Part shown: one piece after another, positions 11,392-25,952 of the stretch
Layout of the letters: every line of letters starts with the position of its first letter
Position numbering within the stretch: the stretch's first letter is position 1
Virus record (IMG/VR): IMGVR_UViG_3300042288_000055
Coordinates: 1 to 29,303 of that record
Origin: a virus
Length of the DNA stretch: 29,303 nt
Reading direction: 5' to 3' (one strand)
The notes under the pieces: generated by a model
Told to the model about the DNA's origin: nothing
Database searches by the model: none
What the model saw: the letters and a program-made list of their open reading frames with translations, nothing else
Position numbers and translations under genes: made by a program

Positions 11392-11408
11392 AGTGATAGC
11401 GAATCACT
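11392..11408. promoter_or_regulatory. Inverted repeat before the tail chaperone gene
   Basis: AGTGAT and ATCACT are separated by AGCGA in the short leader between the terminator and the ATG at 11416. It could be an operator or an mRNA hairpin. The gene has no evident SD, so structure here could affect initiation. Confidence 0.3.
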
Positions 11409-11415
11409 GATATTT

Positions 11416-11766
11416 ATGGCAACCACGTCTGCACTGTCACGACTCAAGAAAGCTGCCAACCTGACGCCTGTCAAGCGTACGGTGAAATTAAACGATGGCA
11501 CTGATTTTGAGTTTTACTCAGCGCCGCTTACGATGTCCGAACGTGAGCGGGCGCAAAAGATGCCAGGTGGTGATGACCCCAACGGCTTTGCACTAAACCT
11601 ACTGGTCACCAAAGCAGTGGATGATGCCGGGCAACGGTTGTTTGCCGCTGGCGAGATCGCTGAGCTAAAGAACGAGGTAGAAGATGCTGACCTGCAGCAA
11701 CTTATGCTGGCGATCATCACCAACCCGGAAGAGGTAGAGGTAGACATGAAAAGCGTTAAAAGCTGA
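11416..11766 (+). CDS. Tail assembly chaperone, short form (lambda G-like)
   Basis: A 116-residue protein directly upstream of the tape measure gene and followed by an out-of-frame extension, the hallmark arrangement of tail assembly chaperones. The product has a beta segment (VKRTVKLNDGTDFEFYSAPL), the common LTMSERERAQKM motif and an acidic helical end (AEIAELKNEVEDADLQQLML). It should coat the tape measure during tail assembly and be absent from the virion. The last codons, ATG AAA AGC GTT AAA AGC TGA, contain the presumed frameshift site. Confidence 0.82.
   Translation: MATTSALSRLKKAANLTPVKRTVKLNDGTDFEFYSAPLTMSERERAQKMPGGDDPNGFALNLLVTKAVDDAGQRLFAAGEIAELKNEVEDADLQQLMLAIITNPEEVEVDMKSVKS
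11755..11766 (+). promoter_or_regulatory. Candidate frameshift site, tail chaperone
   Basis: GTT AAA AGC TGA ends the short form. The two frames overlap only between 11750 and 11763. AAA followed by A permits re-pairing after a +1 slip (AAA-A at 58-61 and also at 49-52), and an AGC codon before a UGA stop could pause the ribosome. The exact site and direction (+1 or -2) cannot be settled from sequence alone. Confidence 0.5.
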
Positions 11767-11935
11767 GCTAAAGAAAGACAACCTACTATTGCTTCAGCTT
11801 GGTATCGCTAAAGAGCTGGGCTACTCACTAGCCCGGCTCAACCAAGAGGTAACAATGGAAGAGCTGCTCCTATGGAGCTGTTATTTTGACCTGCAAAACG
11901 AAGAGCAAGAGCGTAGAATGAAGCAAAGGCGGTAG
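11765..11935 (+). CDS. Frameshifted extension of the tail assembly chaperone (lambda T-like part)
   Basis: This frame is open from 11750 and runs to TAG at 11933-11935. It reads ELKKDNLLLLQLGIAKELGY, SLARLNQEVTMEELLLW and a charged end QNEEQERRMKQRR. The LARLNQEVTMEELLLWSCYF-type helix is typical of T-domain extensions. The frame is +1 (equivalently -2) relative to the short form. The only internal ATG (11855) would give 26 residues, so a fusion of about 172 residues made by recoding is favoured. The tape measure GTG follows five bases after the stop. Confidence 0.7.
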   Translation, partial: ELKKDNLLLLQLGIAKELGYSLARLNQEVTMEELLLWSCYFDLQNEEQERRMKQRR

Positions 11936-23099: not shown

Positions 23100-23348
23100 A
23101 TGATCGAAGTTTTAGCGGCGGTGGCGGGAGCGTCAATCTCAGTGGCGGCAATGGGTGCGATGGGCTTTTCACGCCGCAGCGACCAGGCGCGTGATGCTGT
23201 TATCCGCCTGACCGCATCAGTAGAGCACATTGTCGCGCAGTTGGAGATAATTCATACTGATATGCGCGACGCCAACCGCGAGACCTTTAGCCGCCTCAAC
23301 TCAGTAGAGCAGCGTGTCAGTAAGCTGGAAGTACAACCGCGCATCTAA
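23100..23348 (+). CDS. Small membrane protein with coiled coil, possible holin/lysis factor
   Basis: Eighty-two residues. Residues 1-24 are a hydrophobic, Ala/Gly/Met-rich segment (IEVLAAVAGASISVAAMGAM), followed by a positive patch (FSRRSD) and an amphipathic coiled coil to the end (VEHIVAQLEIIHTDMRDANR, NSVEQRVSKLEV). A single membrane segment and a cytoplasmic or periplasmic coiled coil placed just before the endolysin suggests a lysis accessory protein or holin, but no named family is recognised. Confidence 0.65.
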   Translation: MIEVLAAVAGASISVAAMGAMGFSRRSDQARDAVIRLTASVEHIVAQLEIIHTDMRDANRETFSRLNSVEQRVSKLEVQPRI

Positions 23349-23350
23349 CC

Positions 23351-23491
23351 GTGGACTTCCTGTCCCATCCCGCATTTTGGATCATCATCGCAGCAGCGTC
23401 TGAGCTGATCGCCTTGTCGCCATTGAAGAGCAACAGCCTTGTCCAACTGGCATTTCAGATCCTGAACGTGCTGAAGGCAAAAAAGCGTTAA
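23351..23491 (+). CDS. Tiny membrane protein, holin-like, ending in a slippery site
   Basis: Forty-six residues from a GTG two bases after the previous stop: DFLSHPAFWIIIAAASELIA then LSPLKSNSLVQLAFQILNVL and KAKKR. Residues 8-24 can span a membrane, and a second amphipathic helix follows. Proteins of this kind recur upstream of cyanophage endolysins, as I recall. The final codons GCA AAA AAG CGT TAA contain the canonical -1 slippery heptamer A AAA AAG, and the -1 frame continues for 80 more codons. So this may be the short form of a two-product gene. Role in lysis is inferred from size, hydrophobicity and place. Confidence 0.75.
   Translation: MDFLSHPAFWIIIAAASELIALSPLKSNSLVQLAFQILNVLKAKKR
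23479..23485 (+). promoter_or_regulatory. Canonical -1 frameshift heptamer A AAA AAG
   Basis: The heptamer is in the correct phase for the 46-residue frame (AAA at 23480-23482, AAG at 23483-23485) and lies three bases before its TAA stop. A weak possible stem, AAGCC (23503-23507) with GGCTT (23522-23526), starts 17 bases downstream. The -1 frame then stays open to 23727. Confidence 0.6.
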
Positions 23492-23727
23492 TCAGCTTTG
23501 GTAAGCCCGGCTGGCAACGTCGGCTTGAATTTGCCATCAGACAGTGGTGGTTTGAGCTGACGTTGCCCGCCAAGCTAGATAAAGCTGAAGCCGACTGGCA
23601 CGCAACGCAACCTAAAGCTCCCGATCCGATCATCGTCGAGCACCCTATAGATGACACCTTGCAAACAGGTGACAGCCGCTTGCTCGGTGGCGGCATGAGT
23701 ATCCACGCACCTTGGAAACGTGACTAA
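23485..23727 (+). CDS. C-terminal extension read by -1 frameshift (no start codon of its own)
   Basis: The frame is open from 23404 but holds no ATG, GTG or TTG until an ATG at 23695, close to its end. After the slip it encodes 80 residues: ALISFGKPGWQRRLEFAIRQ, a WWFELTLPAKLD amphipathic stretch, an acidic linker and the end GGGMSIHAPWKRD. With the first 45 residues this gives a fusion of about 125. The stop overlaps the endolysin GTG by eight bases, the tight spacing expected of a translated gene. The alternative is reinitiation at ATC in TAATC (23489-23493), a very rare start. Function unknown. Confidence 0.6.
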   Translation, partial: ALISFGKPGWQRRLEFAIRQWWFELTLPAKLDKAEADWHATQPKAPDPIIVEHPIDDTLQTGDSRLLGGGMSIHAPWKRD

Positions 23728-24796
23728 CACCGCACCGATCACGCTGGAGCAATTGTTCCGGTTTTATAAAGCGCTGCCGCATCAAGCTGCTGCGTTGCAA
23801 CTGCTGGAACAGGATTTAGCAGTCAATGGCTACGCCGTTGCTATGCGCCGCGATCGCGCATGGTTTGCCACTTGGAGTCAAGACGGCAAGCAGGCCGATC
23901 TGGCCGCAGCGCTCAAGATCATCAAGGAGTTTGAAGGCTGCCACCTTGAAGCCTACTTGTGCCCCGCCAATCGGTGGACAATTGGCTGGGGTAATACCCG
24001 CTATCAAGACGGCAGAGCTGTCAAGCAAGGCGACAGCATCAACCGCATCGAGGCGGACATGTTACTTCGACAGGAGGTGGACCGCATCGCCGTCAAACTG
24101 GCTAAGGATGTGCCTGGTTGGAGGGAGATGGCTGATGACCAGCGGTCGGCGCTGGTGTCATTTGCCTATAATCTCGGCGCTGGCTTCTATGGCGCTGTTG
24201 GCTTTGAAACGATCAGCAAGCGGCTAAAAGAAAAGGATTGGGGCAAGGTGCCCGAAGCGATGATGTTGTACAGGAACCCTGGCAGTAACTTTGAAGCTGG
24301 CCTGAAGCGGCGCCGTGAAGCGGAGGGCAAGCTATGGAGCCAAGGACTACCGCAGCAGCCGCAGGCCAGCCCATACAAGGTGAAGCCATCTGATCCGTTC
24401 AGCACCAAGCTGTCGCCACACTTCACCCTTGGCGAGTTTGCACTGGGGCAACCTGCTCGGCGCTTCACTGCTCAGCACCAGGTAGACACCGCCATCGAGC
24501 TGGCGGCATTTTTGGAACGTGTGCGCGTCCAATTTGGAGGCAAGCGCATCACCATCACCTCGGGCTACAGACCTGCAGCAATCAACCGCGCAGTTGGTGG
24601 TGCATCTAGCAGTGAGCACCTGTATGACGCGCCCAGCGTCGGCGCGGTGGACTTCTTTGTGGACGGTGCAGACATCAATGCGGTGCAAGCCTGGTGTGAC
24701 AAGGAATGGCCGTTCAGCATCGGCTATGGTGCGCCTAAGGGGTTTGTCCACCTCGGCATCCGCAAAGGCCGGCCTCGCGTTCGCTGGGACTACTGA
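23720..24796 (+). CDS. Two-domain endolysin: GH24 muramidase plus M15 peptidase
   Basis: 358 residues from a GTG. Residues 1-62 form a small helical region, perhaps substrate targeting. The GH24 domain (about 63-210) has the pattern E72 - 8 residues - C81 - 5 residues - T87, the Glu/(Asp or Cys)/Thr triad arrangement of phage lysozymes, with TIGWGNTRYQDG and LVSFAYNLGAG. A linker precedes an M15_3-type zinc peptidase (about 232-358) with SGYRPAAINRAVGG, SSEH300, D311 in GAVDF and H344 in FVHLGI. It should cut both glycan and peptide bonds of the wall. No signal peptide is seen, so a holin is needed. Confidence 0.94.
   Translation: MTNTAPITLEQLFRFYKALPHQAAALQLLEQDLAVNGYAVAMRRDRAWFATWSQDGKQADLAAALKIIKEFEGCHLEAYLCPANRWTIGWGNTRYQDGRAVKQGDSINRIEADMLLRQEVDRIAVKLAKDVPGWREMADDQRSALVSFAYNLGAGFYGAVGFETISKRLKEKDWGKVPEAMMLYRNPGSNFEAGLKRRREAEGKLWSQGLPQQPQASPYKVKPSDPFSTKLSPHFTLGEFALGQPARRFTAQHQVDTAIELAAFLERVRVQFGGKRITITSGYRPAAINRAVGGASSSEHLYDAPSVGAVDFFVDGADINAVQAWCDKEWPFSIGYGAPKGFVHLGIRKGRPRVRWDY
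23850..23857. repeat. HIP1 octamer GCGATCGC
   Basis: Exact copy inside the endolysin gene. Confidence 0.8.
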
Positions 24797-24797
24797 C

Positions 24798-25952
24798 ATG
24801 AACTCCGAACGTACCTACCAATGCCGCCGCACAACAGCGTGCCGGGCGTGGATTGCTGAATCCGAACTTGAATGGGTGCAGGTTTCTAGTGGCCGGCGGC
24901 CTGTATGCAAGCCAGGTATGTGCCCCAAGGGAAATCGAAACGATACGACCGCAGAACTGTTGGCCTTGCAGTTGGAGGTGCGCCGCCTAAAGGCCACTGC
25001 TAAGACCGCCAATGATGGCCAGGAGCGAGCAATTGGCGAGGTGGAGCGACTGCAGGAGCAACTCAGCACGGCGCTGGGCATCGTGGACTGCCCAACCGAC
25101 TTGGCAATTCTGCCGCCACCGATAACTGCCGTTTCTAAATCAGTGCCGGTGCTGCTGTGTTCCGATTGGCACTGCGGTGCAGTGGTGCGTCCAGCATCGG
25201 TAAACGACCTCAATGAGTTTGACGTAGGCATCTTCCACCAACGCGCGCAGGGCCTGTTCCGCAATGCGCTGAAGGTGGTAAACATGGTTCGCTCCAGCGC
25301 GACCATCACTGAGATGGTGGTGTGGCTAGGAGGTGACCTAATTGACAACTGGCTTCACCCTGAACAGGTGCAGATGCAGGAGTTAAGCCCAACGCAGCAG
25401 ATCATCGAATGCGAGCGGGCCATTGTGGCGGGCCTGAATTACCTGCTTGAGCACGGCGACTTTGATCAAATCATCGTGCCTTGCAGCCACGGCAACCACG
25501 GGCGCACAACTCAGAAGATGCAGGCCGACAACAGCCATGCCACCAGCTATGAATGGCTGATGTATCAAAGCCTGCAGCGGCACTTCCGCAGTGAGCCGCG
25601 CATCGTCTGGCAGATTGCTGACGGCAACGTGACCTATCTGACAGTGCTGGGCCAGGTGTTGCGCTTCCACCACGGTGACGCCTGCCGTTACCAAGGCGGC
25701 ATTGGTGGACTAACAATCCCGCTGACCAAGTGGATTCACAGAGCAGATCAAGCAATTCGCGCTGACCACACATTCCAAGGCCACTTCCATCAGCTAACGC
25801 TGGGCCAGAACTGGTCAGTAAACGGCAGCCTGATCGGTGCAACCGCTTACGGCTTGAAGCTGGGTTTTGCACCGGAGCGTCCGCAGCAGTTAATGCGGTT
25901 CATTGACTCAGCGCGTGGGTTTACCGTGTCGGCTCCCATCTTGACCGATTGA
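24798..25952 (+). CDS. Calcineurin-like metallophosphoesterase with N-terminal cysteine motif
   Basis: 384 residues from the ATG at 24798, one base after the endolysin stop; an upstream in-frame extension would lie wholly inside the endolysin gene and is discarded. Metal-binding motifs: D123-W-H125 (CSDWHCG), GGD180, GNH (232-234), H291-H292 (FHHGD) and GHFH (328-331), in the correct order for the family. Residues 1-45 carry C9, C15, C37 and C42, a possible zinc knuckle, followed by coiled coil (about 52-92). Substrate is unknown: nucleic acid, nucleotide or phosphoprotein. The neighbouring HNH nuclease hints at DNA processing. Confidence 0.88.
   Translation: MNSERTYQCRRTTACRAWIAESELEWVQVSSGRRPVCKPGMCPKGNRNDTTAELLALQLEVRRLKATAKTANDGQERAIGEVERLQEQLSTALGIVDCPTDLAILPPPITAVSKSVPVLLCSDWHCGAVVRPASVNDLNEFDVGIFHQRAQGLFRNALKVVNMVRSSATITEMVVWLGGDLIDNWLHPEQVQMQELSPTQQIIECERAIVAGLNYLLEHGDFDQIIVPCSHGNHGRTTQKMQADNSHATSYEWLMYQSLQRHFRSEPRIVWQIADGNVTYLTVLGQVLRFHHGDACRYQGGIGGLTIPLTKWIHRADQAIRADHTFQGHFHQLTLGQNWSVNGSLIGATAYGLKLGFAPERPQQLMRFIDSARGFTVSAPILTD

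Follow-up and report, generated by a model that had tools for sequence, protein, structure and literature searches.

We propose that gene B, a small gene directly upstream of the endolysin in a viral genome related to those of Synechococcus siphoviruses, is expressed as two products through −1 programmed ribosomal frameshifting. We place the probability of this reading at about 0.93; it rests on comparative sequence analysis, without evidence at the protein or ribosome level. The slip site, the −1 domain, and the RNA hairpin are strongly supported by sequence conservation; the ratio of the products, their topology, and their use are all inferred. According to the proposed mechanism, part of the ribosomes would remain in the zero frame and terminate one codon past the heptamer, yielding a 46-aa membrane protein. 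Other ribosomes, delayed by a hairpin that starts 6 nt downstream, would undergo tandem slippage one base back at A AAA AAG and continue for 80 codons of the −1 frame. The slipped product would be 125 aa long, joining the same membrane segment to a domain that is helical, probably cytoplasmic, and ends in a conserved tail.

The window, by which we mean the whole 29.3-kb viral record analyzed, carries genes for terminase, capsid, tape-measure, lambda-J-like tail tip, and sigma factor proteins, and it is related to the Synechococcus siphoviruses S-CBS1 and S-CBS3. The features of the locus are as follows.

23100 to 23348, + strand: gene A, encoding an 82-aa protein (phrog_26178, unknown function)
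23351 to 23491, + strand: gene B short form, zero frame, 46 aa, a small membrane protein and candidate holin (phrog_22542, unknown function)
23479 to 23485, + strand: slippery heptamer A AAA AAG, in phase, kept in 234 of the 239 loci that have the −1 domain
23489 to 23491, + strand: zero-frame stop codon TAA, one sense codon (CGT) past the heptamer, at a position shared by relatives
23492 to 23588, + strand: putative stimulatory RNA hairpin, separated from the heptamer by a 6-nt spacer (folding energy, z score, codon-preserving null)
23485 to 23727, + strand: −1 frame domain, 80 codons plus stop, predicted to give the 125-aa gene B long form (dN/dS, alignment, AlphaFold2)
23720 to 24796, + strand: endolysin with an uncharacterized N-terminal module, Phage_lysozyme (PF00959), and Peptidase_M15_3 (PF08291); phrog_28234, endolysin

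The gene A product has a single N-terminal hydrophobic segment followed by a coiled-coil-like tail, and a comparable small protein lies directly upstream of gene B in most relatives inspected. Two nucleotides separate the gene A stop from the GTG of gene B at 23351, from which the zero frame runs to the TAA at 23489-23491 (translation, MDFLSHPAFWIIIAAASELIALSPLKSNSLVQLAFQILNVLKAKKR). The endolysin starts with a GTG at 23720, and 8 bases are common to its start and the end of the −1 frame. A 477-aa frame on the + strand (24519-25952) overlaps the endolysin in part and has no Pfam match; only its later part resembles a real gene (phosphoesterase-like sequence by eye).

The original prediction held that the 46-residue frame ends in GCA AAA AAG CGT TAA with an in-phase A AAA AAG, and this was confirmed at 23479-23485. 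The site meets the criterion of an X XXY YYZ heptamer in zero-frame phase for bacterial −1 programmed ribosomal frameshifting, and it is the single + strand occurrence of AAAAAAG in the whole window. Among 60 representatives (first scan plus isolates, 95% identity), 58 carry the exact heptamer. The codon before the two lysines varies among GGA, GCA, GTA, ATA, CCA, ACA, TTA, TCA, and CAA; its third base is A in all 58, yet nine different residues are encoded, and A-ending codons make up 18% in the window's genes. The distance from the heptamer to the zero-frame stop is 3 nt in 55 of these 58 representatives and 0 nt in the remaining 3. At the same place S-EIV1 reads G GGA AAG CGC TGA, the heptamer of which is of the lambda G/GT type. 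No Shine-Dalgarno (SD)-like stimulator was found 6 to 17 nt upstream of the heptamer in any of the 60 representatives; such an element is an optional, non-obligatory feature of bacterial −1 frameshifting.

Relatives were collected from three collection scans and several isolates. The first scan was queried with −1 domain peptides, and the second and third were queried with the zero-frame protein only. The second scan returned an in-phase AAAAAAG just 5′ of the stop in 78 of 80 IMG/VR loci, and the third returned 70 loci with the heptamer and the −1 domain and 10 with neither. Across 253 loci or records in which the zero-frame protein is followed by a stop, heptamer and domain were both present in 234, both absent in 14, and never was the heptamer found alone; the domain stands alone, with no A AAA AAG, in the other 5. 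Near-duplicates and records recurring across scans are present in this set. After clustering at 80% identity the counts were 46 (both), 4 (neither), 2 (domain only), and 0 (heptamer only). For loci chosen by the zero-frame protein alone, heptamer and domain were associated with a Fisher P of 2e-15, a value that is only a guide and no strict probability, because the loci are related. The alignment of relatives suggested earlier as a check on the heptamer and the missing start thus came out in favor of the proposal, with A AAA AAG kept in 234 of 239 domain loci and absent from 14 of 14 domain-less ones. Genome contigs contributed just three loci, all within metagenome-assembled bacterial bins and probably viral contigs.

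The loci without the domain include a group whose zero-frame protein ends in KPKKQ(T/A) and which has neither a slippery heptamer nor the −1 domain (L087, L215, L219, L221, L222, L224, L226, L231, L232, L236, and L237). This group, which takes in uncultured Oinezvirus (Autographiviridae), is a natural control; L174 likewise lacks both elements. An in-frame natural fusion of the zero-frame part with the −1 domain was not found in any of the fetched loci. A further record, L092 (MH572431.1), a microvirus from Ciona robusta and hence a single-stranded DNA phage, contains at 1486-1629 an unannotated 47-aa protein that resembles the gene B short form (E = 0.004).

A second frame persisting without the A-run had been named as an observation that would refute frameshifting. 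It does occur, in five loci, though slippery-type sequences replace the run in some of them: G GGA AAG, another classical heptamer, in S-EIV1; A AAA AAC in L075; the near-slippery G AAA AAG in L020; and GTA AAG AAG in the near-identical L105 and L111, which retains the A_AAG tetramer. Among tetramers ranked for −1 slippage in E. coli, A_AAG comes first, and an insertion-sequence cluster with A_AAA_AAC is listed as a proven case (PMC4066793). L020, L075, and L105/L111 may therefore still slip, albeit less well.

Downstream of the heptamer, the region 23486-23600 folds at −61 kcal/mol, with a z of −7.4 against dinucleotide shuffles, and the hairpin at 23492-23588, overlooked in the original prediction, is the strong peak of a 2.2-kb sliding scan. 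A codon-preserving null was constructed in which the encoded −1 protein is fixed and synonymous codons are sampled from the relatives' own usage. Against this null the window gave a z of −4.35, and 60 representatives averaged −2.84, with negative values in 60 of 60 and values below −2 in 72%; the same test along the endolysin gave −2.0 to +1.7. The hairpin is conserved beyond what the encoded protein explains. Its 6-nt spacer satisfies the criterion of a downstream structure at about 5 to 9 nt, stimulation itself not being shown. The hairpin is weak in some lineages, e.g., L040, L049, L050, and S-CBS1. Most pair exchanges alter only one of the two sides, and true covariation is slight; one-sided exchanges are expected in a coding region, so that covariation itself is weak evidence here. 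Taken with the co-occurrence of heptamer and domain, a stimulatory-type hairpin at this spacing supports the −1 frameshift that the original prediction inferred.

The −1 frame extends from stop to stop over 23404-23727, and the 80 codons from the slip read ALISFGKPGWQRRLEFAIRQWWFE...GGGMSIHAPWKRD; both this open length and the 8-base overlap with the endolysin start were as first described. The accompanying claim that the frame has no ATG, GTG, or TTG until near its end was incorrect, since a TTG is present at 23563 (codon 27 of 80), followed by later TTG, TTG, and ATG codons. TTG 23563 sits inside the conserved domain and is missing from many relatives, and start codons in the −1 frame of the representatives are mostly at least 15 codons downstream, within that domain. 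For 18 of the 58 representatives, the open stretch of the −1 frame upstream of the heptamer is just 1 or 4 codons long, which makes an independent start hard to accommodate. The −1 codon at the slip junction encodes Leu (TTA, CTA, CTG, or TTG) in most siphoviral relatives because the zero-frame stop requires such a codon; TTA and CTA are not start codons. The criterion of a −1 frame that is open, conserved as protein, and without its own start is met, with a possible upstream or junction start in a few lineages (L064, L076, L214, and L217).

The −1 domain consists of a long helix and a conserved C-terminal tail, LQTGDSRLLGG.MSIHAPW, with 21 invariant columns in a 25-sequence alignment. The −1 frame has a dN of about 0.05 to 0.13 and a dS from 0.6 to saturation, and it is under purifying selection; dN is far below dS in both frames. 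AlphaFold2 modeling of the domain, using the window and IMG/VR sequences, reached a mean pLDDT of 83.5. A fold search with the predicted structure returned two significant viral matches, which probably represent the counterparts in S-CBS3 and S-EIV1, and a weak match to S-PM2; Pfam gave no significant match for the domain. The C-terminal tail is the most widely kept part, and the linker to the membrane segment varies freely. T4-like cyanophages have a possibly related domain inside a single-frame protein (weak scores).

Gene context was considered in relation to function. Most siphoviral relatives inspected have a small gene A, then gene B, then an endolysin. The endolysins that follow gene B are visibly of different kinds; that of the window is a lysozyme plus M15 peptidase by Pfam, and those of other relatives were judged from sequence only. 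Among autographivirids, S-B28, WH11-B, and 7B11-B have the pair between tail-fibre-like genes and a small terminase gene or its neighbors, which is the place of the holin gene 17.5 in T7; here the tail SISLTxP[WF] is kept and the linker is short. The lysozyme of S-EIV1 is not an immediate neighbor of the pair. Adjacency to an endolysin, as expected of a holin, is met in the window and most siphoviral relatives and not in S-EIV1 or the autographivirids. A lysis setting is supported by the varied neighboring endolysins and, in podoviruses, by the T7 gene 17.5-like position. As a separate observation, one N-terminal module, LxxLFRYYKxLPHQxAAxxELE, recurs in endolysins whose catalytic domains appear to differ (window 23720-23925, L003, L091, L170, L187, and many other loci); in the window protein (residues 1 to 68) the module matched no Pfam family.

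The short form has a moderate hydropathy peak of 1.87 over residues 9 to 25, by hydropathy alone with no dedicated membrane predictor, and meets the holin criterion of a small protein with at least one hydrophobic membrane segment. No holin family model matched it in Pfam, and PHROGs assigns it to phrog_22542, of unknown function; many holins match no model, so the missing match lowers but does not exclude holin membership. The positive charges that follow the membrane segment point to a cytoplasmic C terminus, an inference, and because of them a spanin-type role is disfavored, by topology reasoning only. The leading functional hypothesis is a holin/antiholin-type role in which the long form delays or tunes lysis or tethers a lysis partner; it is plausible but unproven, and we would put it at slightly short of even odds. 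The gene context accommodates the earlier suggestion that lysis timing could be set as by dual-form holins, holin activity being inferred only.

About as likely is that frameshifting is real but the protein is no holin, the long form instead serving as a membrane anchor or adaptor (for the endolysin or gene A, for example) and the ratio of forms not setting lysis timing. The absence of a holin model match fits this possibility, as do the wide retention of the −1 tail while the linker to the membrane segment changes freely, the S-EIV1 pair lying away from the lysozyme, and the possibly related single-frame protein of T4-like cyanophages. It is less easily squared with the lysis enzyme that immediately follows gene B in most of the siphoviral relatives inspected and with the T7 17.5-like position in podoviruses.

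The −1 domain could also be a separate protein, started by reinitiation at a non-standard codon (e.g., CTG or ATC at the stop) and coupled to termination of the short form. The zero-frame stop does overlap the second frame, and CTG occurs there in many relatives, but the window and others carry TTA or CTA at this point, and autographivirids carry different codons again. Reinitiation leaves unexplained the invariant phase of A AAA AAG, the NNA wobble, the heptamer swap in S-EIV1, and the fact that every locus without the domain also lacks the heptamer; we rejected it on these grounds and consider it very improbable. Hardly any weight remains, likewise, for slippage of RNA polymerase on the six-A run, which would create mRNAs of altered length that fuse both frames. 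A runs can cause transcriptional slippage in bacteria, but six A's are a short run, and the domain is kept despite GGGAAAG in S-EIV1, which has no long run, and shorter runs in L020 and L105; ribosomal slippage better accounts for the strict codon phase and for a hairpin spaced at 6 nt, and polymerase slippage too was rejected. A sequencing error or decaying gene, in favor of which no evidence was found, is refuted by the recurrence of the arrangement in over 230 loci and in several isolates and by dN far below dS in both frames, and its probability is negligible.

The proposed −1 frameshifting in gene B was compared with known systems. E. coli dnaX combines A AAA AAG with a downstream stem-loop and an upstream SD-like stimulator. 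Gene B has the same heptamer and a stem-loop at similarly short spacing but lacks the upstream element, and its frameshift product would be much longer than the zero-frame product, whereas that of dnaX is shorter. IS3/IS1-family elements likewise pair an A6G heptamer and stem-loop with a long fusion as the recoded product; there the protein is a transposase, in contrast to a lysis-cassette membrane protein. As in lambda G/GT and P2 E/E+E′, two phage proteins would share an N terminus via −1 slippage, and S-EIV1 uses the lambda-type G GGA AAG; gene B is nevertheless another gene at another genome position, the lysis region, than the tail-assembly chaperones. Unlike gene B, P2 E/E+E′ lacks a strong conserved hairpin (PMC3091744). 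The window also has a probable tail-assembly chaperone pair of its own on the + strand, at 11392-11766 and 11750-11935, flanked by the genes for the likely major tail protein and the tape measure. Its two frames overlap, with the second displaced by +1 (or −2) relative to the first, which makes a further programmed shift of a type other than that in gene B likely there.

The dual-start lambda holin S105/S107 resembles gene B in being one small membrane-protein gene with two product lengths beside an endolysin. Lambda varies the N terminus by two start codons, whereas gene B would vary the C terminus by recoding; the gene B forms share their N terminus, so the lambda-type criterion of N-terminally different forms is not met, and a sequence relation of gene B to S105/S107 was not found.

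Tail-chaperone genes supply most of the known cases of programmed frameshifting in tailed phages. In the open-access literature searched, neither a frameshifted holin nor the gene B slip site is described, subscription papers being outside the search. The PRFect paper deals mainly with tail-assembly chaperones and lists lysins among genes with known frameshifts; its main text mentions neither holins nor cyanophages. The gene B site, which is deeply conserved, lies in a lysis-region membrane protein, and is accompanied by a strong hairpin of the stimulatory type, would extend programmed frameshifting in tailed phages to lysis. In the isolates S-CBS1, S-CBS3, KBS-S-2A, S-EIV1, and S-B28, the second half of gene B is missed, truncated, or given an internal start, and these annotations would be corrected.

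We know of no worked-out mechanism of burst timing in Synechococcus phages, and the frameshift proposal offers a directly testable means by which they may control it. A broader and more tentative possibility, which we hold somewhat less likely than the holin/antiholin role itself, is that cyanophages belonging to two or more unrelated types, lambda-like siphoviruses and T7-like autographivirids, together with S-EIV1, share a holin gene in which the ratio of effector to regulator is fixed by −1 frameshifting rather than by dual starts. If true, this would be a novel mode of lysis timing that persists through exchanges of the endolysin itself.
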